NCBI GenBank assembly: GCA_029210545.1
Contig: JARGFV010000082.1
Span: 1 to 11,478 of the forward strand
Direction: 5' to 3'
DNA from: a bacterium
GTDB taxonomy: Bacteria; BMS3Abin14
DNA length: 11,478 bases
A program made the position numbers and the translations under genes. The notes under the pieces are model-generated. The model made no database searches, was not told where the DNA came from, and worked only from the letters and a program-made list of their open reading frames with translations. Below, one piece after another: positions 154 through 11,282 of the stretch; positions within the stretch are counted from its first letter, which is position 1, and every line of letters begins with the position of its first letter.

Positions 154-1827
154 TTACCGTAGCACATCCAACGTTTCATCACTCCCCACAACCACCAAAT
201 GTGCGTTGGCCCTGGTGATCCCCACATACAGCAGGTCCTCCTGGTCCAGAACGTCCTCCAGTTCAACGAGGATGACCACCGGTCTTTCCAAACCCTTGAA
301 GCGGCGTATGGATTCAAAGGCGACCTTATCCTCGTCACATTCTTCGCCGCTGCACACCTGGAAGGCGCCGATCTTTCCGTCCTCTGCCAGGGAGCTTTTC
401 TCAGTCGATCGGCCGGACAGGACCGCGATGGATGCGGGTGAGATGCGTTCATCAATGATGAGCCTGTGAAGGGTCCGGCTCACGCCCTTCTGCCGCTCCC
501 TCTCGCCACCTGCCTTGATGAACTCAACCGGCCTTCCCGCCGGCCCCCCTGCTTCCATCGCTTCCCCTTCATAGAATCTGGAGGCCAGGTCGTAGATCGA
601 CCTGGTGTTACGCAGGTTCTGATCGAGCGGGTATTCGTCCAGTCCCTGCGGTATAGCGTCCTTGTGGCCGTAGAGCCGCTGGTTGTCGTCGTAGAAGACA
701 TAGAGGATGCTCTGTTCCGGGTCGGTCATGGATAGCTGGAGCATGGTCCACCATTCCTCACGGAAGTCCTGCCCCTCATCCACCACGATGGCGTCAAAAC
801 GTTCTTCCGGCATCATCTCAAGTGCCTTCATGAAAGCGTTGGGAAGCACCTCGTTGAAGTAGTTCGATGAGGGAGAATCCTGCACCTGGATCTCCGGCAG
901 CTCGGCCTTTTCAGCCATGTCGTGGCAGAGCCAATGGAAGTTGCGCACCGTGATGTCCTCATGCTCTCCCGCCCGGTCTTCCAGGAACTCTGCCAGGGGT
1001 CGGTTGAAACATGTGAGCAGCACCTTCATCCCTTCGCCGGCCAGCTGCTTCGCTTTCTCCACTGCCAGCATGGTTTTGCCGGTGCCTGCACCTCCGGAGA
1101 TGGCCACTCTCCTTCTCCTTCGAAGGTAGCCCAGGAGATCGAACTGCCTTTCAGTCAGCTGCAGGATCTGTTTCGAATCAGCGGCGATGTCCGCCGCCAG
1201 GGGGTGTTCCAGCTGGAAACTCCGGGCCAGGAGCTTTTCGACCATCTCCATGCCCCGGGCGCCGAATTCCACACTTTCCAGATCCTTCCCGCTCCAGTAC
1301 TCCCAGGCGTTATCCAGCCACTTGTCCATCCAGCCCAGGTCACGGGTAAAGGCCATCATCTCGTGGGCTGAATCGGTGCTGATGGGGCCGGAGGGTCGTG
1401 CGGAGTCCGGGAAAATGACGCAATGCCCCAGTCTTACATATTTGCGGTTCCAGCCGGGCGCCTGCTTGATCTTACTCAGAAGGGCATACTTGCTCTTTTT
1501 GACCTGGTCGAAGGGATCGTCGATGCGGTGTTCTTTACCACTGCCGTCTATGCTGTACCATTGATCGGTAGCACCATCGTATTTGATCTTCCCGCCCTTG
1601 ACCTCGATGACCAGGATCCCGTTGTCCGGATGGGCAACCACAAAATCGGTCTCCCCATCCACGGGAGCCTGTCCCGGCGATGGCCTGCCCAGCCATGAAA
1701 CGCTGTAAAAGATAATGCTGTCGTCAGGAGCGTGGGAAGCGAAGGCCTCGTAAACGGCCTGCTCCGCATCCCGCAACGGGTCGTTGCGGACCGATTCAGG
1801 CAGTGGTGTGGGAATCAAGCGGGGCAT
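154..1827 (-). CDS. NERD nuclease-domain / superfamily 1 (UvrD-like, DUF2075-type) helicase fusion
   Basis: This 557-residue protein is predicted to be a cytoplasmic nuclease-helicase. Seen in the sequence: the N-terminal part carries a restriction-endonuclease-fold pattern typical of NERD domains, GETDFVV (E59, D61) followed by VIEVKGG (E75, K77), consistent with a D...ExK catalytic centre. A superfamily 1 motor follows: Walker A GGAGTGKT (245-252), Walker B/motif II VVDEGQDF (348-355), a motif IV-like stretch around QNLRNTRSIYDLASRFY, a motif V-like KGLERPVVIL (511-520) and motif VI LLYVGITRANAHL (532-544). All key motor residues look intact, so the gene is probably functional. Start: the ATG at 1827 leaves the whole NERD domain intact, but there is no clear Shine-Dalgarno sequence in front of it. 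It lies 184 bp downstream of the PLD-SNF2 helicase on the same strand, so it may share the operon transcript or have its own promoter. NERD-helicase fusions are frequent in defence islands. A role in DNA repair cannot be excluded. Confidence 0.88.
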   Translation of the reverse strand: MPRLIPTPLPESVRNDPLRDAEQAVYEAFASHAPDDSIIFYSVSWLGRPSPGQAPVDGETDFVVAHPDNGILVIEVKGGKIKYDGATDQWYSIDGSGKEHRIDDPFDQVKKSKYALLSKIKQAPGWNRKYVRLGHCVIFPDSARPSGPISTDSAHEMMAFTRDLGWMDKWLDNAWEYWSGKDLESVEFGARGMEMVEKLLARSFQLEHPLAADIAADSKQILQLTERQFDLLGYLRRRRRVAISGGAGTGKTMLAVEKAKQLAGEGMKVLLTCFNRPLAEFLEDRAGEHEDITVRNFHWLCHDMAEKAELPEIQVQDSPSSNYFNEVLPNAFMKALEMMPEERFDAIVVDEGQDFREEWWTMLQLSMTDPEQSILYVFYDDNQRLYGHKDAIPQGLDEYPLDQNLRNTRSIYDLASRFYEGEAMEAGGPAGRPVEFIKAGGERERQKGVSRTLHRLIIDERISPASIAVLSGRSTEKSSLAEDGKIGAFQVCSGEECDEDKVAFESIRRFKGLERPVVILVELEDVLDQEDLLYVGITRANAHLVVVGSDETLDVLR

Positions 1828-2011: not shown

Positions 2012-4762
2012 TTACGACCAGTTTGAACGCATGATTGATGCTATAACCCGGGGGTCCAGCACCTTCTCACACGATTCCCAGTCGATCCTCTCCACATTGG
2101 CGTACCTTAATTCGAAGGGGTGACTTTTGGGTACCTCGTCTATGATTTTTGCGGCCTGTTCCCTTTCACCCATGGCCATGGCAACCCAGGCATCCTCCAG
2201 CACATCCGGGAGCTGGCCAAACAGGTTATAGATATCCTTGAGACGATCGGACAGGAGCTGATGCACCCGGTCTTCAACAGAATCCTTGTATCGCATGTTG
2301 TAAACGTAAACTTTGTCATGAACCTGGCCGATTCGCTGGATGCGGCCTTTTCTCTGTTCCAAACGGGTGGGGTTCCACGGAAGGTCCAGGTTAATCAACG
2401 TGGCAAGCCGTTGCAGGTTCAGCCCTTCCGAGGCGGCATCCGTTCCGATCATGAGTTTCAGCTCGCCCTTTCTAACCATAGTTTTAATGTCTTCGCGATT
2501 TTTCCGAGTCCAGGCGCCCCGCAGATAAATCCCTGACGATTGGGAGCCGGAGTATACAGCTATTTGTTCCTCAGGGTACTCTTCGGTAAGCTGCTCCGCC
2601 AGCCATAGCACCGAGTCACGGTACTGGCTGAAAATAATACACCCGCGCTCAAGCCACCTTCGGGCCGCCAGGCATTCGAGGACAACCTGATACTTGGGGT
2701 CCCTTTCCTGGTTCGCTTCCAGCGCCGCAACGAACTTTTCCAGAAGATCCCTTTCTGTCGAAGTCAGGCTTCGAGAGATACTGGCCATCTCAACTGGCTC
2801 TTCCTCCCCAAAAAGGTCCTCTTCCTCCTCCATCACTGGATCGAGGTCTTCCCATTCGGAGAGCATCTTTTGGGCCGTTTTCAATCCGGCATACACGGTG
2901 CTGCCAACGCGCCTTAAAAGGAGTGTTTTTAAAAACCCTGCCCCCTTCATTCGCTGACCCAGGGTGCGGCAAAATTCCTCAGCGAGGTCGTAGGCTTCGT
3001 GAAGGTAGGGCGGCAATAAGATGGCCTCCCTATCACCCTCACCAAACAGCTCAACACCGATTTTTTGCAAAAGTGGCTCGTTGGTCTCCGGGTCAATCTG
3101 GTTTTCCAGCTGCTCCCTGGTTCGCCGGATAATTCTGGTAATGAACGGATTGTGATCCTTGATGTATCGGGGAAAAAGGTCCCGCAGTCGCGAAACTTCG
3201 GGTGCTTTGAATCCCATAATGGCATCCCCGTCTACAACAGATTTCTTGTCTTCAAGGGCCAGCTTTGCCCGCAGTATTTCGAAATCCCGATGCTCTTCTT
3301 TCGGAGGGAGAGGGTTTCTTATCCATTCCCATTGCTCCTCAATACTTTCAGGTGGCTGATCGCTTCCCATGACCAGGGAGAGGGCCTGCCCCGACTTTCT
3401 CCAACGGCTAAAGGAGTTTCCCAATACGGATTCATCACCATGACTCAGGATATCAAGAAGGTCCCAGGCTTCAATCGGCCTGATCTGGACAGGAGTCGCT
3501 GTTGCCAGGAGCAGGCTCTGTGTTCTGTCGGCGATCTGCTTCATGAAAGCCAAGAGATTGTTCGCATCTGGTGCTTCATTATCCCTACCGTCCCCCAGGT
3601 TTTTACGGCGGGCACGATGGGCTTCATCAAGGATCACGCAATCATAAGTCAGGGAAAGAAGATGTTTGACCGCATCAGACCTTCGCGTGACCAACCCCCC
3701 TGATACGATCCCCACACGGCGCGGGCACCGTCGGATCCCCTCGGATCCTGTCACCGGGTATTCAATTTCACGTTCATCTACCCACTGTTTCCCTATCCAT
3801 ACCGCAGACGGCATTCCCAGGAGATCCAGCATCTCCCCTTGCCACTGCCATATGAGTGTCTTCGGGCAGATGATGAGGATCGGCTTATCCCCAGATAGAC
3901 CGATGAGCAGGGCTGTCATAGCCAGCTGAAGGGTTTTCCCCAATCCGACCTGGTCCGCAAGGATGTACCGGGCCTTGCCAAGGGGGCCCTTGTGGGCATC
4001 GAAAGCTGTCTTGACAAAGTATTTCTGGTGTTCCCACAGACCAACCTCACGACGGTAAACGGGAGACTCGATGACGACAGGGGCGGGGTCCATCTGACCC
4101 TCTTGTGTTTCTTCGCCCTTCCATCCCTCCCGTGTCGGGATGACTTTCCTTTTTGACAATCGGCCCAGATCCTCAACAACAAAATCAGCAAGAGGGATAG
4201 AGTAGGGGGAACTCCAAAGGGCGTTAAACTCTTCCTGGACCCACTCGACAGCCTCGGAGGAGGAATCCTCCCAGACCAGCTCGTAGTTCATCTCCCATGC
4301 GGATTTAGACTCGTTGGCGCTGCCTAGAAAGCTCGTTTTGCTTCCATCGGCCAGGGTGACCACTCCGGCCTTCCCATGGACCAGGCCAAAGGCGTTATCG
4401 GGCAGGACGCGCACCTGCAACTTACCGCTCCTGAGGTATTCAAAGAGGGCCTGGAACCTGGATCTTGCCTTTTCTCCTCCCTCAAGATCGAGGTAGGATT
4501 CCGGCTGGGAAGCACACCACGATCGCCGTAGGGCAGCCTGGGCAGCCTTGGCAGTGATGACATCGGCAGGGTTCAGATCGGAGTTACAGATGAGCCTAAT
4601 GGGGCCTGTTATGGATTCCAACTCCTCGCCGGCTACCTCTATAAGGGACGATGAGAAGTAACCGGCGATCCGGTCGTAGGACTTGGCGCCCCTGAGCCTG
4701 TCCAGCAGGAACGATTGTGACAGTGGTTCGAGCCGGGAAGAAAACCTTCGTACAGGGCTCAT
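2012..4762 (-). CDS. Phospholipase-D-like nuclease / SNF2-family helicase fusion
   Basis: This 916-residue protein is predicted to be a DNA translocase with an attached PLD-type phosphodiesterase. Seen in the sequence: the N-terminal ~190 residues resemble a PLDc_2 domain, with an HxK motif (H129, K131) followed by GSANES (147-152) and an acidic NYELVWED stretch. There is one HKD motif only, so an active site would need dimerisation. The SNF2 core follows: Walker A DQVGLGKT (270-277), motif II DEAH (379-382), motif III TATP (421-424), motif V GTDAASEGLNLQ (773-784) and motif VI QRKGRIQRIGQ (803-813). An acidic insert (about 639-656) lies between the two RecA lobes. Start: the ATG at 4762 is preceded on the minus strand by AGGT in three tandem copies ending in AGGTGA, a plausible ribosome-binding site. 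It lies 49 bp downstream of the methylase stop, consistent with one operon. The family is known from DISARM-like and other restriction-type defence loci, where PLD-helicases are the probable effector. No frameshift or missing motor motif is seen. Confidence 0.92.
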   Translation of the reverse strand: MSPVRRFSSRLEPLSQSFLLDRLRGAKSYDRIAGYFSSSLIEVAGEELESITGPIRLICNSDLNPADVITAKAAQAALRRSWCASQPESYLDLEGGEKARSRFQALFEYLRSGKLQVRVLPDNAFGLVHGKAGVVTLADGSKTSFLGSANESKSAWEMNYELVWEDSSSEAVEWVQEEFNALWSSPYSIPLADFVVEDLGRLSKRKVIPTREGWKGEETQEGQMDPAPVVIESPVYRREVGLWEHQKYFVKTAFDAHKGPLGKARYILADQVGLGKTLQLAMTALLIGLSGDKPILIICPKTLIWQWQGEMLDLLGMPSAVWIGKQWVDEREIEYPVTGSEGIRRCPRRVGIVSGGLVTRRSDAVKHLLSLTYDCVILDEAHRARRKNLGDGRDNEAPDANNLLAFMKQIADRTQSLLLATATPVQIRPIEAWDLLDILSHGDESVLGNSFSRWRKSGQALSLVMGSDQPPESIEEQWEWIRNPLPPKEEHRDFEILRAKLALEDKKSVVDGDAIMGFKAPEVSRLRDLFPRYIKDHNPFITRIIRRTREQLENQIDPETNEPLLQKIGVELFGEGDREAILLPPYLHEAYDLAEEFCRTLGQRMKGAGFLKTLLLRRVGSTVYAGLKTAQKMLSEWEDLDPVMEEEEDLFGEEEPVEMASISRSLTSTERDLLEKFVAALEANQERDPKYQVVLECLAARRWLERGCIIFSQYRDSVLWLAEQLTEEYPEEQIAVYSGSQSSGIYLRGAWTRKNREDIKTMVRKGELKLMIGTDAASEGLNLQRLATLINLDLPWNPTRLEQRKGRIQRIGQVHDKVYVYNMRYKDSVEDRVHQLLSDRLKDIYNLFGQLPDVLEDAWVAMAMGEREQAAKIIDEVPKSHPFELRYANVERIDWESCEKVLDPRVIASIMRSNWS

Positions 4763-4769
4763 GCGCTGT

Positions 4770-4782
4770 CACCTACCTACCT
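4770..4782 (-). promoter_or_regulatory. Tandem AGGT ribosome-binding site of the PLD-SNF2 gene
   Basis: On the minus strand the 5' leader reads AGGTAGGTAGGTGACAGCGC directly before the ATG at 4762. The last AGGTGA lies about 6 nt from the start, a normal distance. The two extra AGGT copies are unusual and may offer alternative anchoring for the ribosome or be a slippage product. This site supports the chosen start codon. Confidence 0.5.
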
Positions 4783-4811
4783 GAAAATGTGATATTGGAA
4801 GCCAGCAACCT

Positions 4812-7727
4812 CTACACATGGTCGTTCCTCACGGCCCCTGCCAGAAGAGCGGCTGACCTGGCATCCTCAGTCCAGTGATCCAGACCCCGCACACCGCCAG
4901 TGGACGCAAGGTTTTCCAGCAGGTGTATGATCTTCTCCCTGCTGTTCCAGTAATCGGGCAGCTCCGTATGGAACCAGTCGAGTCCGCTTTTCACCTCATT
5001 ATTTTTTCCAACAGAATGGATCGCAAAGAGGATCTGGCGGAGAAGAGAACCTGCAAACCCGTCCCCAGAAAGTCCACGTCGTCCGAGCTCCGTTGCTGTT
5101 TTCAGCCTTGTCTGGTTCGCCTTGGTCGAGGCTAGAAGGGCCGAATAATCGGCAGCCCCGAAACCCCTGGCCAGTTCCTGGTAAACACCGCTGCGCAGTT
5201 CTCCGTGTCCCTCGACTTCCAGACCTTTGAGGTAGAACCGCTCCATGGGGGAAAGAGTCTTCCATACCTCCCGGTCGATCCCCTTAGGGACAAGATGGTC
5301 ACAGGCAACCTTGACAGCGTTGACGATCATCTGCTCTACCGGGTTGACCTCTCCACGTGACCTTTCTCGTTGTATCTCCCGGGCCGGATCGACTTCCTCA
5401 ATAGGCCTCTCCGTCAGGATCCTCAAAGCAGCGGCGTAGGCTGCCAGCTGATAGTCAGCGTCGGCAAAATTGGGGTCGCTGTCATCCTCCAAAGCCGTCA
5501 TGCTGTCGAGTTGTTCCCTGACTTCGGCTTCAATCTTGTAGGCGATCTCGTCCAGGAACACCGGCTCCTCCTCCGTTCTTTTACGGCAGACGAGAAGCAC
5601 AGTTCCCTGAACGTAATTGCCTTCCTTGATGACGGCATCTGTCTCTGTCGAAATGCACCAGGCGGCGGTCACGCGCAGGCCGGCGGCCCATAGAATCAAA
5701 GCAAGGTCCGCCCAGACCCTTGCATCTTGATGGGTGAACATAACGATCTGCATGCCGTTATCCGGCATATGGTGGACCATTTTTTCGTAACACTCCACCA
5801 TGGCCTGGCGGAAACCCTGATCGTTTCCCTTAACGACCAGGGCTCTTTTCGAGTCGGCATACCAGTCGGGGAAAAGAACTGGCAGCCGACCTCCATACCA
5901 TGCCAGGAAGAATTCGGTGATCTCCTCATAATTGATGGCATCCGCATAAGGGGGATCAGTTATCCAGAAATGGCTCTTGTGTTCCAGCTGCCTGGCATCC
6001 AGAGGGATAACCACCGAATCCGAATCGATTTCCTGGGGATCATACCGCATGTACCAGACACCTTCGAGCAGTCCCAGGCCCTTGGAACCATAGTTATATA
6101 AGGTGTTAAGCGCCTGGTTGTAGAAGGTCTGGGCGAAGGATTCCCGAGCAGCACCAACGCCCCATCCCATAAGACGGGAGTTCCAGTTACAGCAGCGACC
6201 GACTCCAAGGAGGCCTGCAACCTTTTCCTCGATTGTGTCCCCGATTTCTTCGGTCATCTCCGTGAGCAGGCCATGGAGCAGAAGCTGGCGGGGAGTGAAC
6301 AGGTGATGCCAATAGGTCCACCCACGGGTACGGATTGGCTCATCTGTTTTACTCCCTGGTTCGATGCGACGGTTCGGAATGAATCCCTTCTTCTGCCACT
6401 CCGGGAACCGTTCCTTGAGAAGTTTGAGGACCTTGGCCTCCCTGGCCATGTCCTCCGCTGTCGGGGCCCTGTAGTGCCTACGGGTCCTCTCCTCACCTTT
6501 CTCACCAGAATAGGTCTCTATCCAACGGATGCAGTAGAGCCTTTCCTGGAAGACGTCATCGGGTCGGGGGGCTATATCTTCATTTTCCCACATCCTCATG
6601 CCACGGCGAATGACTTCGATAGGAGTAGAGGGGCCCCCATCAGGAGGGACCAGCCGCGAGCTGCTGATGGTCCCGATCCCCTTGGCCGTCTTCTGCTCCT
6701 GGGAGGTCGCGTCCCACTGAATCTCTACTTTGAACCTTTTTTCCCCATGGTCCGGAACCAGATGGCCCACCACTCCGGAGGAGGGGCCGATAAGGAGTGA
6801 CGGCAGGAGAGGAACGTGGTAGCCGGACTCCGGGTCCTTCACCTCGACGCAGTAAAGGAAGGCGTCAGCTCGCCAGCCGACCTCATTGGTTTCGATGCCC
6901 CACTCCACCACCTTCTCGTCCACGGCATGGAGGATCTTCTCCTGTGCCTCCCGGATCTTCTGGGCTGTCTCTTCACTCCCGCCAACCAAATTCAGGGAGG
7001 CCCAGGTGAGAATAGTTCCAACCGGACTCAGATCCGAACCGTATGCGTCACACCCTAACCGCGCCGCCTCGAAGGGAATGGAACCGGCTCCGCAGAAGGC
7101 ATCCCCGACTTTGGGTCGTGATCCAAACCGCCTCTGCCCAAGCTCCTCGACCAACTCAGGGAGGGAGGATGCTGCTGTTCCAAGGTGGGCATTAATGTTG
7201 CTCCAGGTCTGGTCAGATGGACCGTCGATCTGTTCGGGTCGGCTGGCATACTCCCTTTTCTCCGAGAATGGCATGCGGTCAAACACGAGAACCTGGAGTT
7301 TCTGTGCACCCTCCCGGTCCAGTTTCTTAATTGTTTGGCCATCTTCTTTAAGAAATCGCTTCTGCACGGAACCCGGCATTCTCAGGAGTTCTTCCACCAA
7401 ACGGGGGTTAGGGATCTTTTTGGATCTCCTTCGCCCCATGCCTTCATCATCCATGGTCAGGAGTTGGAGAAACACTTCACGGTCTTTGAGGGGGTCATCC
7501 GAGGCCGGCATAAGAAGGCCCAGGAGAGCAGCTCGAACCAGGATGAGGGGCTTTCGCCCCCACCATTTGCCTAGGCCTGTGAGGGTCTGGCTCTGGACCG
7601 CTTTCCTTTCCTTGAAGCTCTCCTGGGATATCTTCGCAACCGGGAACTGATCCTCGATAAAACTTTTGGCATCATGTAGATCGGCTATAACCTTACTAGA
7701 AGGGGCGGGTCTGGTTGAACGGCTCAT
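4812..7727 (-). CDS. DUF1156-containing DNA adenine methylase (COG1743-like)
   Basis: This 971-residue enzyme is predicted to transfer methyl groups from S-adenosylmethionine to adenine N6 (N4-cytosine is possible) in DNA, most likely marking the host genome as self. Seen in the sequence: an N-terminal DUF1156 block (residues ~22-66, with FIEDQFPVAKIS and KWWGRKPLILVRA), the SAM-binding motif I DAFCGAGSIPFEAARLG (209-225) followed by GSDLSPV, and the catalytic motif IV TDPPYAD (590-596). Motifs I and IV are about 370 residues apart, so a large domain sits between them. It holds a conserved-looking GWTYWHHLFTPRQLLLHGL segment (469-487) and may act in target recognition. The C-terminal ~230 residues (after about 740) are helical with no recognised motif. 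The start ATG at 7727 overlaps the DUF3780 stop by 4 bp (ATGA), with GAGAGG about 11 nt upstream, which indicates translational coupling. All key residues are present, so the enzyme may still be active. The target sequence cannot be predicted. Confidence 0.92.
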   Translation of the reverse strand: MSRSTRPAPSSKVIADLHDAKSFIEDQFPVAKISQESFKERKAVQSQTLTGLGKWWGRKPLILVRAALLGLLMPASDDPLKDREVFLQLLTMDDEGMGRRRSKKIPNPRLVEELLRMPGSVQKRFLKEDGQTIKKLDREGAQKLQVLVFDRMPFSEKREYASRPEQIDGPSDQTWSNINAHLGTAASSLPELVEELGQRRFGSRPKVGDAFCGAGSIPFEAARLGCDAYGSDLSPVGTILTWASLNLVGGSEETAQKIREAQEKILHAVDEKVVEWGIETNEVGWRADAFLYCVEVKDPESGYHVPLLPSLLIGPSSGVVGHLVPDHGEKRFKVEIQWDATSQEQKTAKGIGTISSSRLVPPDGGPSTPIEVIRRGMRMWENEDIAPRPDDVFQERLYCIRWIETYSGEKGEERTRRHYRAPTAEDMAREAKVLKLLKERFPEWQKKGFIPNRRIEPGSKTDEPIRTRGWTYWHHLFTPRQLLLHGLLTEMTEEIGDTIEEKVAGLLGVGRCCNWNSRLMGWGVGAARESFAQTFYNQALNTLYNYGSKGLGLLEGVWYMRYDPQEIDSDSVVIPLDARQLEHKSHFWITDPPYADAINYEEITEFFLAWYGGRLPVLFPDWYADSKRALVVKGNDQGFRQAMVECYEKMVHHMPDNGMQIVMFTHQDARVWADLALILWAAGLRVTAAWCISTETDAVIKEGNYVQGTVLLVCRKRTEEEPVFLDEIAYKIEAEVREQLDSMTALEDDSDPNFADADYQLAAYAAALRILTERPIEEVDPAREIQRERSRGEVNPVEQMIVNAVKVACDHLVPKGIDREVWKTLSPMERFYLKGLEVEGHGELRSGVYQELARGFGAADYSALLASTKANQTRLKTATELGRRGLSGDGFAGSLLRQILFAIHSVGKNNEVKSGLDWFHTELPDYWNSREKIIHLLENLASTGGVRGLDHWTEDARSAALLAGAVRNDHV

Positions 7728-8374
7728 GATTCGTTATCCCTCTCGTCGGCTTCTTTCGGCCGTTCATCCAAATCACTTTCACTGGCCAGACGGAAAAATT
7801 CCGGGACCACCAGATCGTCAGGCGAACGGTTAATGGCAGGGTTTTCGGAAAGGGCAAAACGCAGGGCTTTTCTCCAGCCCTTACCCCTGTCGAGGGTGCC
7901 GTGCCCGGTGGCAGCCGCTGTCTGGGTATAGAGCCACCACCGCTCCTCGGCCACCAGGCCCTTCCAGTTAGCCACTGCGTTGGAAACCAATCCCGGGTCA
8001 GCGTCCTCAATGGCCCAGGCGAGCAGTACGAGCTCTTTGCCCAGTTCCTTCCTCACCAGGTTGGGTCCGGTGCGCCATGCGCCGGCCTTTTTCCTTATTT
8101 TTTTCAGGCGTTGGTTAAAGTGCGCCCGGACTTCATCGGCGATGGCGTCCCATTTGGGACGGACGAGGACTGCCCTCACCTGGCCATCCAGTTTGTTGGT
8201 GTATGTCACTTCACTGGACCCTTTAACGCTGTCCCAGGTGAAATGTTCGCTGATCTCAACCTTCTGTGTTGAGGCTCGCTGTATCGTGACCACGAAATGA
8301 TGCTGGCTTTCGGCAGGATCGAAGCCAAAGGAGTGGGAAATCCGTTTTGACGTATCGTAGCTATCCCTGGTCAT
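7724..8374 (-). CDS. DUF3780 family protein
   Basis: This is a 216-residue protein of unknown biochemical activity. It is recognised as DUF3780 from characteristic blocks: SFGFDPAESQHHFVV near the N-terminus (15-29), LGKELVLLAWAIEDAD (111-126), NWKGLVAEERWWLYT (136-150) and GWRKALRFALSENP (166-179). It has no signal peptide or membrane segment, so it should be cytoplasmic. The last ~20 residues are highly charged and mostly acidic (DERPKEADERDNES). The family is known mainly as a neighbour of DUF499 and DUF1156 genes, which suggests a dedicated subunit or specificity/adaptor factor of the same complex; that role is inferred from context. It starts 4 bp after the DUF499 stop, with only a distant GGAAGAG at ~16 nt, so it may depend on reinitiation by ribosomes finishing DUF499. 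It overlaps the methylase start by 4 bp. If DUF499 translation is lost, expression of this gene may fall. Confidence 0.88.
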   Translation of the reverse strand: MTRDSYDTSKRISHSFGFDPAESQHHFVVTIQRASTQKVEISEHFTWDSVKGSSEVTYTNKLDGQVRAVLVRPKWDAIADEVRAHFNQRLKKIRKKAGAWRTGPNLVRKELGKELVLLAWAIEDADPGLVSNAVANWKGLVAEERWWLYTQTAAATGHGTLDRGKGWRKALRFALSENPAINRSPDDLVVPEFFRLASESDLDERPKEADERDNES

Positions 8375-8378
8375 TGAT

Positions 8379-11093
8379 TTACTGTTTTATCTCTTCCGCG
8401 GTGAAGTTTGTGCGGCCATCCTCGACCCAGTCCAGGAAGTCCTGTCCCGCCTGGAAAACTACTTTCCGCGTTTTTAACTGGACCTGGCCGTCTCCCTGGA
8501 TCTTCCTGAGGACATCGAGGCATTCCTCGATCAGCTCAGGGGCAATCTCCTTTTCTTCGAAGGTAGTGAGCTCTATCCACTCCCTTGTTCCAGCTATTCC
8601 CCCGATGATGATGGTTATCCCTTCCGCCCTGGCCTTATATTTCTTGAGGCCTTCCAGAAACTCATAGGATTCCTGGGTTGATGCGAAATCTTGAATGCGG
8701 GACCAAATCAAAGGTTTCTGGGGGTCAACCTTGATCTTCTCTTCCTTTTCCCAACTGATGGCAATGCGCTCAACTTCTGATTCGATTTCTTCCCTGGTTG
8801 CGTAAGCCAGGACCACAGAGGTGCCTTTGGGTAGGGCGAAGGGAGTATCGTAGACAGCCCCGGCAACTTTGGGATCAGAACCATCTGTCGAGTAGTAGAC
8901 ATCGGCTGATGGAGCGGCCTGAAGCTCCATCATCTTATCGCTGCCTTTCTGATAGGTTTTGTACTTCAAGGTGATCCGGTTTTTCCAAAGTGTGGGCTCT
9001 CCCGCCTCATGGCGGCCGGCACTGTCAACGGCAAGGAACGAAACCTTGAGATCGTTCCCATCCCACCTCGAGCCGTCCAGTTTGGCCGATGCAGTAGTGG
9101 CCGGCCCTCCGATTTCGTAATAGATGGTGTCTCCGTTAATGGGGGTGACCCTGAGTACAACGTCGCCGGTATTATCGTTCCTCGATTGCTCCTGGATGGA
9201 AACGTTGGTTTTCGGCTGGGGGAAAGGACCCTTGTCGACAAAACCACCATCCTCCCTCCAGAGATCCTTGTGCAGGCAGTCTTCCCTCAGACGGTCCAGG
9301 GCATCTGCTCTGTGCCACTGCCATTTCGGCATAGCGCCTGCCCTTTTCTTGATCTCCCCCCATGGCATGGATTGCTGAGTAAATAACCTCTGTTCACACT
9401 TCTTCCGGAAAGTCTCGCTGGAGATATCATCGGTGAACTTCATCTTCTCCTTCAGTACGTCGATGATCTGCTGCTCGCCGGAGTACTGGTTTCCCTCAAA
9501 CTTCATCCGGAAGTCAGCCTGGACGAGGCCTGATTCCGTTGGATACCAGACGGTGGTAAAGGTCTCCCGGACAGCTGAGTGGAAATTGTGCAGGATTCGC
9601 TCGTTCAGCTCCCTGGCCTGAAGCATCTGCGGGTCGTTATCAGGGACTCTCTCCGTTTGCAGGTCGTTGAGGATGTGCTGGACGGCCTTGAGCCGTTTCC
9701 CCACATCTATCAGCTGATCGTAGGTGTCCTTTGTTCCCGTGAGGAAACAGATCCTGTTTTTCCACATCGTCTGCTCATAGAACTGGACCAGTTCCGGTCG
9801 GAGGTGGCCACCTAATCGAGGTTCAGTAACTACCAACGTCGTCCGGTCCTGTTCGAGCTCAATCTCATCCACTGGAGGGAGAACCTGAACCTTCTGGTAG
9901 CACCATCCATTGGTGACTTTGAAAAGTTCCTGGAGTCGCTCCCTGAGTTCCTTTTCGGCTTGCTCCTGCGCGAAAGCTCGAACCAGAGATTCCAGTTTAG
10001 CAATGAGGTTCTGAACGTTTTTGAAAAAAAGCTTTCCATCTCTGGTGCTGTGAAGGTACCAGGCTGCGGTCGAAATCTTGGACAGGGTCTCCTCTTTGAG
10101 TTTTGAGAGATCCCTGCCCGGCTCGCACAGATAGGCCACCAGTTCAGGAATGGCGAGCCCCAGCGTGGCATTAGGAACGTTTGCCAAAGATGCCATGAGC
10201 AGAAGTTTACAGGCATCCGTTGCATCCTTGTTGCCCATGTTGGCAGCCATGACCTCGGCCACTGCCTGGCCGTCCGAAGCGATATCATGGGCGATAGCAT
10301 TATCCAGTGAACTGTTGATCTGGCCGATCTCTGCTCGGGTTTCCTGGTCGTTAAGGTCCAGGTCGTGGGCCCCCACAAGGTATGAATGCTCCGCAATACC
10401 TGTCGTCCAGAGGCGAGCAACCACGATCCTCATGAGCCGGATGAGGCCTCTGGTCTGTTGGAAGCCTGGGTTCTGCCTGAAGCGGGCATACAGATCACGG
10501 ATACCAGGGTGAAACGGGTAGGATGACGTGATGTGTTGGGCAAACTCCTCAGGAGACTGGCTGGTGATAGCCATCTGTTTGGCGTCCCTGATGGCTTTTG
10601 CGTACCCTTGAGCGACCTCTTCAATTTGACCTTCAGATGGCAGGCCGGTAAAGATCCGCTTGCGGAGGATGTGGTAGAGCTCATCAGAATTCAGTCTGAC
10701 GGGCTCGAGGGTCATCGCTGTTCTGTGAGTTTCATTTTCAAAATCCGAAAGGAGTGCCGTGATCTGAGCGCTCCCACTTTCATAAGCTGCCGCCAGATCT
10801 GTGATGACAAGACACACCCGTGAGCAGGATTCCTTGCCGATTGCTACAAGAAGGTTTGAGAGGGCGGTAGCCGTTACTTGCGCCAGATCTGAATTGCCCA
10901 CGGCTTTTGATTTGGCGTTTTCAAAGTAAGGTGGCAGTTCGTCGACCAACAGGAGAACAGTTTCGCCATCAAAAAGGTTCTCCCAGGCTTTCTGACCAGG
11001 GGCCTGAAGAGGTGAATAGCACTCTTTAAAATGGGCCTTTTTCCCTAACTGCTCGGCTAGAGAACCCCAGATCCCCTTGTTGATTCCTAGCAA
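8379..11093 (-). CDS. DUF499-type P-loop ATPase, 5'-truncated (probable pseudogene remnant)
   Basis: The remaining 904 residues match the DUF499 ATPase family. An IWGSLAEQLG segment (8-17), like the (R)TLWGELAxQLG block of the family, is followed by Walker B VLLLVDELPPYF (46-57), a sensor-like LVITDLAAAYE (95-105) and SYPFHPGIRDLYARF...FQQTRGLIRLMRIV (191-224). Known full-length relatives begin with a Walker A (GxGTGKT) that should lie upstream of the first block. No such motif is present here. The frame can be read only to the TGA at 11121-11123, which falls inside a putative transposon end (TGTCAG at 11119). The TTG at 11093 is simply the first possible start; it has no Shine-Dalgarno sequence. 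The C-terminal third contains beta-rich, immunoglobulin-like segments, one (~722-766) resembling chitobiase C-terminal repeats (YYSTDGSDPK...PFALPKGT). It is the first gene of the operon. Without Walker A it should not bind ATP normally. It could be completed beyond the inserted element, outside the window. Confidence 0.85.
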   Translation of the reverse strand: MLGINKGIWGSLAEQLGKKAHFKECYSPLQAPGQKAWENLFDGETVLLLVDELPPYFENAKSKAVGNSDLAQVTATALSNLLVAIGKESCSRVCLVITDLAAAYESGSAQITALLSDFENETHRTAMTLEPVRLNSDELYHILRKRIFTGLPSEGQIEEVAQGYAKAIRDAKQMAITSQSPEEFAQHITSSYPFHPGIRDLYARFRQNPGFQQTRGLIRLMRIVVARLWTTGIAEHSYLVGAHDLDLNDQETRAEIGQINSSLDNAIAHDIASDGQAVAEVMAANMGNKDATDACKLLLMASLANVPNATLGLAIPELVAYLCEPGRDLSKLKEETLSKISTAAWYLHSTRDGKLFFKNVQNLIAKLESLVRAFAQEQAEKELRERLQELFKVTNGWCYQKVQVLPPVDEIELEQDRTTLVVTEPRLGGHLRPELVQFYEQTMWKNRICFLTGTKDTYDQLIDVGKRLKAVQHILNDLQTERVPDNDPQMLQARELNERILHNFHSAVRETFTTVWYPTESGLVQADFRMKFEGNQYSGEQQIIDVLKEKMKFTDDISSETFRKKCEQRLFTQQSMPWGEIKKRAGAMPKWQWHRADALDRLREDCLHKDLWREDGGFVDKGPFPQPKTNVSIQEQSRNDNTGDVVLRVTPINGDTIYYEIGGPATTASAKLDGSRWDGNDLKVSFLAVDSAGRHEAGEPTLWKNRITLKYKTYQKGSDKMMELQAAPSADVYYSTDGSDPKVAGAVYDTPFALPKGTSVVLAYATREEIESEVERIAISWEKEEKIKVDPQKPLIWSRIQDFASTQESYEFLEGLKKYKARAEGITIIIGGIAGTREWIELTTFEEKEIAPELIEECLDVLRKIQGDGQVQLKTRKVVFQAGQDFLDWVEDGRTNFTAEEIKQ

Positions 11094-11209: not shown

Positions 11210-11243
11210 GGGCGGAGAGTTTAGACGAACTCTCCGCCCTTTT
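11210..11243 (+). terminator. Strong rho-independent terminator in the transposon leader
   Basis: A perfect 12-bp stem (GGGCGGAGAGTT at 11210-11221 with AACTCTCCGCCC at 11228-11239) encloses a 6-nt loop, TAGACG, and is followed by TTTT on the plus strand. The minus-strand side has no T-run, so it works rightward. It lies between the element end and the first element gene (ATG 11283). It would stop transcription entering from outside, or act as an attenuator of the element's own leader. Confidence 0.7.
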
Positions 11244-11282
11244 ACATTCGGGGTGACAGCCCCTGTCCTACATGGAGGTTTA

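Follow-up and report, generated by a model that had tools for sequence, protein, structure and literature searches.

A probably broken copy of a Type-2 BREX-Related cassette with an N-terminally truncated DUF499 ATPase

Introduction

The Type-2 BREX-Related (BR) system, described in 1120 taxa by Rakesh and Krishnan (2026, PMC12839542), combines four components: an ATPase of the DUF499 family, which often carries FnIII-like domains; DUF3780 as a standalone protein; an N6-methylase with DUF1156; and a helicase of the HKD-SNF2 type. By homology, the ATPase corresponds to BrxC, the methylase to BrxXI and the helicase to BrxHII of Type-3 BREX, and an R-M-like mechanism with DUF3780 as the reader of the modification was proposed for the system (PMC12839542). 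DUF3780 itself was stated in the literature to be without a definite homologue. A three-gene relative that lacks DUF3780 is the Hma system (Type-1 BR) of PADLOC 2021 (PMC8565338), in which the helicase has a TUDOR domain and a PD-(D/E)XK nuclease instead of an N-terminal PLD domain (PMC12839542).

Gene content and organization

The window analysed here was one entire contig (C82, 11,478 bp) of a 2.72-Mb assembly of 241 contigs. Its minus strand showed five long genes, transcribed in the order DUF499, DUF3780, DUF1156 methylase, PLD-SNF2 helicase and, after a 184-bp gap, NERD-UvrD. The first four genes were spaced by a 4-bp gap, a 4-bp overlap and a 49-bp gap, and both this packing on one strand and the positions of the open reading frames were identical to those given in a first-pass annotation of the window.

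The DUF499 gene (11093-8379, minus strand) encoded an N-terminally truncated protein of 904 aa with a TTG start, which belongs to the BrxC-like AAA+ ATPase family (PF04465, E=2e-27; NF042962). The other three cassette genes encoded a DUF3780 protein (8374-7724; 216 aa; PF12635, E=2.6e-48; NF042961), a DUF1156 DNA methyltransferase (7727-4812; 971 aa; PF06634, E=1.9e-21; NF042963) and a fusion of a PLD (HKD-type) nuclease with an SNF2 helicase (4762-2012; 916 aa; PF13091, PF00176 and PF00271; NF042964). Pfam, NCBIfam and PADLOC were concordant for all four proteins and agreed with the identities assigned at first pass. All four also matched NCBIfam families named 'anti-phage-associated', as had been stated there. 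The Pfam and NCBIfam matches of the four proteins are not due to chance. The methylase (1305 bits, cut-off 1000) and the PLD-SNF2 protein (1273 bits, cut-off 1100, with the match extending to aa 915 of 916) scored above the NCBIfam thresholds. The DUF3780 protein reached 159 bits at a curated cut-off of 200, and the DUF499 protein 716 bits at a curated cut-off of 1200, the latter because it is incomplete.

The NERD nuclease-UvrD helicase gene (154-1827, minus strand; PF08378, PF00580) was rejected as a fifth member of the cassette, being absent beside it in related loci. In Thermomicrobium roseum, a NERD-UvrD gene was found about 140 kb from the cassette, and the search in locus L005 gave only a weak helicase-level match. 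The window protein resembled the reverse-transcriptase-associated NERD helicase of PADLOC (RTasNERD-Hel, E 2e-76), and the window has no reverse transcriptase.

Classification of the cassette

The window showed the same four components as Type-2 BR in a tight locus, with a standalone DUF3780 within the core, a putative DUF1156 N6-methylase with a DPPY motif, an HKD/PLD domain N-terminal on the SNF2 helicase and a DUF499 protein with an FnIII-like domain. Membership of the latter in the DUF499 ATPase family was clear; the difference from the described system was that this copy is truncated, without the N-terminal ~128 residues including Walker A. The set had been regarded at first pass as a little-characterised defence system, a view superseded by its description as Type-2 BR with a link to Type-3 BREX (PMC12839542). 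The remark that the mechanism had not been worked out still applies to Type-2 BR, for which the R-M-like mechanism is only proposed (PMC12839542). The classification and the kinship with Type-3 BREX are taken from the literature; the gene content, fixed order, catalytic motifs and truncation were observed here.

Three related systems were compared with the window. Type-1 BR (Hma) has a homologous helicase, methylase and ATPase (PADLOC: HmaA, E 4.5e-36; HmaB, E 9.6e-24; HmaC, E 1.1e-38), but it was ruled out by the presence of DUF3780 and of the N-terminal PLD domain on the helicase. With Type-3 BREX, the window shared a methylase matching PglXI (E 9.9e-9) and a helicase matching BrxHI/HII (E 1.1e-36) in PADLOC. 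A search for PglZ (PF08665) across the assembly (97.5% complete) at E 1e-3 gave no match, and no BrxA/BrxB was detected in the window. BREX proper was ruled out for lack of PglZ. The earlier statement that BREX core genes were missing was right for PglZ, but the ATPase is a BrxC homologue according to PMC12839542. DISARM shares an SNF2 helicase resembling DrmD (E 7.6e-40) plus a methylase; however, the PLD-helicase was a full-length match to NF042964 and scored only 164 bits with DrmD against a cut-off of 610. DrmB was not among the matches listed for the window proteins at E 0.1, which for the two helicases were the best 25. The DrmA model matched the PLD-SNF2 protein in its helicase region only (E 3.3e-27), much more weakly than the protein's own family did. 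On these listed matches, DISARM was ruled out for lack of DrmA and DrmB, in agreement with what had been noted before.

Conservation and distribution

In a Bacillota sample of 398 genomes, 19 had DUF3780 above the cut-off, and 17 of these 19 loci contained all four genes in the order DUF499-DUF3780-DUF1156-PLD-helicase, one with the methylase split by an insertion and two with DUF499 cut by the contig end. Of the remaining two, one had no helicase within the stretch covered, and the other consisted of DUF3780 alone, interrupted by an internal stop. The same order was found in all four close-relative loci, one of which was also among the 19. DUF499 adjoined DUF3780 in 20 of 20 plasmid records carrying DUF3780, and the gene order was kept in eight of the nine annotated plasmid loci (two Deinococcus, Thermomicrobium, Desulfosarcina and five proteobacterial genera), some with extra genes inserted and one without the helicase. 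For IMG/VR viral contigs, DUF499 was located directly upstream of DUF3780 in 21 of 30 DUF3780 loci. In addition, the best matches of the window DUF499 were DUF499 proteins adjoining DUF3780. The partners almost always occurred together in a single fixed order and not as scattered single genes, the pattern named at first pass as a refutation. The joint operon and the association with defence proposed there are right. On these comparisons, the cassette is genuine and conserved.

DUF3780 was not found in 11 other members of the window's own family, nor in the other 97 sampled genomes. One cassette-bearing plasmid was conjugative, with Tn7-like genes upstream. The sporadic distribution together with the plasmid carriage indicates horizontal transfer. 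Enrichment of defence genes around the cassette in Bacillota was weak, with matches at E 1e-20 for about 9 of 70 flanking proteins versus 7 of 70 control proteins, a small sample with the per-protein tally estimated from family counts. The flanking matches were more recognisably defence genes (GajA/Old, methylases, IetA, Csx1), and the control matches included housekeeping dGTPase and GlgB.

Several relatives showed interruptions. In Deinococcus NW-56 (L010), a transposase was located beside a truncated methylase and the helicase was missing. In a Bacillota locus, an IS256/Mutator-like transposase (family named from the translated sequence) was located inside the DUF1156 methylase gene (L057:11577-12785). 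Split frames in L007 and L011 could be sequencing errors. Since the window copy joins other insertion-damaged copies, there is a hint that the system may often be switched off. Separately, a toxin-antitoxin pair (Phd/VapC type) was found between DUF3780 and DUF1156 on two Deinococcus plasmids (L013:15449-16185 and L010:15461-16230).

Truncation of the DUF499 ATPase

Intact relatives of the DUF499 protein have ~1025 residues, and the window protein could be aligned only from residue ~126-129. In agreement, its match to the NF042962 profile started at position 126 of 1025, and tblastn showed that the homology begins abruptly at window position 11075, with 'GIWGSLAEQLGKK'. In the alignment, the Walker A motif was present at about residue 75 as Q-S/A-M-GGGKTHN in nearly all relatives, and every relative with its N-terminus inside the available sequence retained the loop; it was absent from the window protein. 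Walker B (VLLLVDELPPYF) was retained, as was a C-terminal CHB_HEX_C/Fn3_assoc domain at aa 719-774 (Pfam). The lost N-terminus was not found on the other contigs of the assembly, and a PDB sequence search with the DUF499 protein gave no convincing match. The description of this gene at first pass as a very large ATPase was correct as to family, but this copy has lost its N-terminus and Walker A. Without its first ~128 residues, and the P-loop among them, the protein cannot function as a normal ATPase. The copy is therefore probably not a working system.

Beyond position ~11079 and up to the contig end (11079-11478, plus strand), the sequence was unrelated to DUF499 N-termini. At 11210-11239 it contained a perfect hairpin of 12 bp with a T-run after it. 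A CxxC zinc-ribbon ORF opens on the plus strand at 11253/11283 and extends beyond the contig, so that only its beginning was present. A minus-strand site resembling a promoter (11311-11283) was a consensus match only. The foreign sequence is probably one end of a mobile element, although searches of the genome, of relatives and of plasmids yielded no second copy.

Methylase and PLD-SNF2 helicase

The methylase retained an intact SAM motif (DAFCGAGS) and an intact catalytic DPPY in the motif alignment, and it is probably of the N6-adenine type. A PDB sequence search with it gave no convincing match. In the methylases of Thermomicrobium roseum and one other (L012, L046), DPGY replaced DPPY, a possible change of the catalytic motif. 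The PLD-SNF2 protein showed PLDc_2 at aa 20-183 followed by SNF2 and Helicase_C (Pfam), which corresponds to an HKD/PLD nuclease N-terminal to a Swi2/Snf2 helicase. The motif alignment showed that HGK and GSAN of the PLD half and helicase motifs I, II, III, V and VI were retained as in relatives. Overall, the DUF3780, methylase and PLD-SNF2 proteins look intact from their sequences.

DUF3780 and its free-standing phage homologues

DUF3780 is the component specific to this subtype. An alignment of 27 sequences showed a strongly conserved DUF3780 core with GKEL..W, EERWWL and GWR. The AlphaFold model had an alpha+beta fold with a pLDDT of 80.9, good over the core. Foldseek with this model gave no match in PDB or BFVD at E 0.001, and a PDB sequence search gave no convincing match. 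RecO was repeatedly listed by VIA-align and was rejected, with Z of 2.3-2.9 and an rmsd of about 5 Å being at noise level. The lack of a convincing fold match agrees with the published absence of a definite homologue.

DUF3780 genes without nearby partners were found at eight IMG/VR loci and in one cultured phage, Proteus phage vB_PvuS_Pm34. These included L091:6001-6456, L093:5995-6468, L094:5983-6459, L095:934-1407, L096 at about 5182-5685, L097:5845-6378 and gene 4 of Pm34 (L115:7986-8501). The Pm34 protein was 39% identical to the window DUF3780 (E 8e-27) and its gene was located between the lysis genes and the record end. DUF499 and DUF1156 were not found over the entire record in seven of these (six contigs, some of them fragments, and Pm34). 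All seven viral-contig DUF3780 copies scanned were above the Pfam cut-off, and the family-wide motifs E-E-R-W-W-L and G-W-R were kept in the aligned phage copies L091, L093 and L094. In L093, L094 and L095, a common small upstream ORF (PHNLSFD-E-W-WLQSKR) overlapped or abutted DUF3780, which suggests that the two genes form a conserved unit there.

Discussion

The cassette belongs to an already classified system, of which the window holds a probably broken copy. The locus is likely a Type-2 BR, R-M-like anti-phage cassette that was acquired horizontally and then damaged, and in an intact copy the methylase would mark self, DUF499 with DUF3780 would discriminate and the helicase-nuclease would cut. 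In this R-M-like model, the DUF1156 methylase would mark host DNA at a specific site and the DUF499 ATPase would assemble on DNA. DUF3780, as a putative recognition or adaptor subunit, would together with DUF499 distinguish unmarked invading DNA, along which the SNF2 helicase would move while the PLD nuclease domain would cut. The model is the best available; we infer both the division of labour and the defence activity. For the window, we infer a loss of function of this copy: restriction is probably off in this genome because the P-loop was lost, while production of the methylase and the nuclease-helicase may continue.

The truncation could be an assembly chimera at the contig end, with the copy intact and fully functional in the organism. 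This is unlikely, although the break is followed by just the last 400 bp of the 11.5-kb contig, the assembly is fragmented into 241 contigs, and no decay is visible in the other three genes. The missing N-terminus is on no other contig, though an assembly of 97.5% completeness could have missed it, and insertion-sequence damage of the cassette was seen in other genomes (L010, L057). If the truncation is real, the shortened DUF499 might still be made from the TTG at 11093 as a non-hydrolysing scaffold, leaving a methylase and nuclease-helicase without the ATPase switch. The 904 aa that remain form an uninterrupted frame up to the stop, with three intact genes directly after it, but Walker A is kept by all relatives with the N-terminus inside the available sequence and the promoter-like site is only a consensus match, so a scaffold of this kind is very improbable.

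A role of the cassette in epigenetic regulation or plasmid maintenance, not phage defence, would fit the toxin-antitoxin pairs inside the operon of some relatives (L013) and the many relatives on plasmids. It is just as hard to credit, however, in view of the dedicated nuclease-helicase in every complete copy, the kinship with BREX and the antiphage activity published for a related Type-1 BR helicase-nuclease, according to a citation in PMC12839542.

The free-standing phage DUF3780 genes may act as decoys or in anti-defence. The fuller proposal, that Type-2 BR uses DUF3780 as its subunit for self/non-self recognition and that some phage copies are decoys disabling the system, is improbable. 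These phage genes nevertheless offer a direct and cheap route to DUF3780 function. The window copy in turn represents a DUF499 ATPase whose N-terminus was apparently deleted in nature. Finally, the cassette is widespread, and each well-delimited copy helps to separate the core (four genes in fixed order) from the accessory genes.
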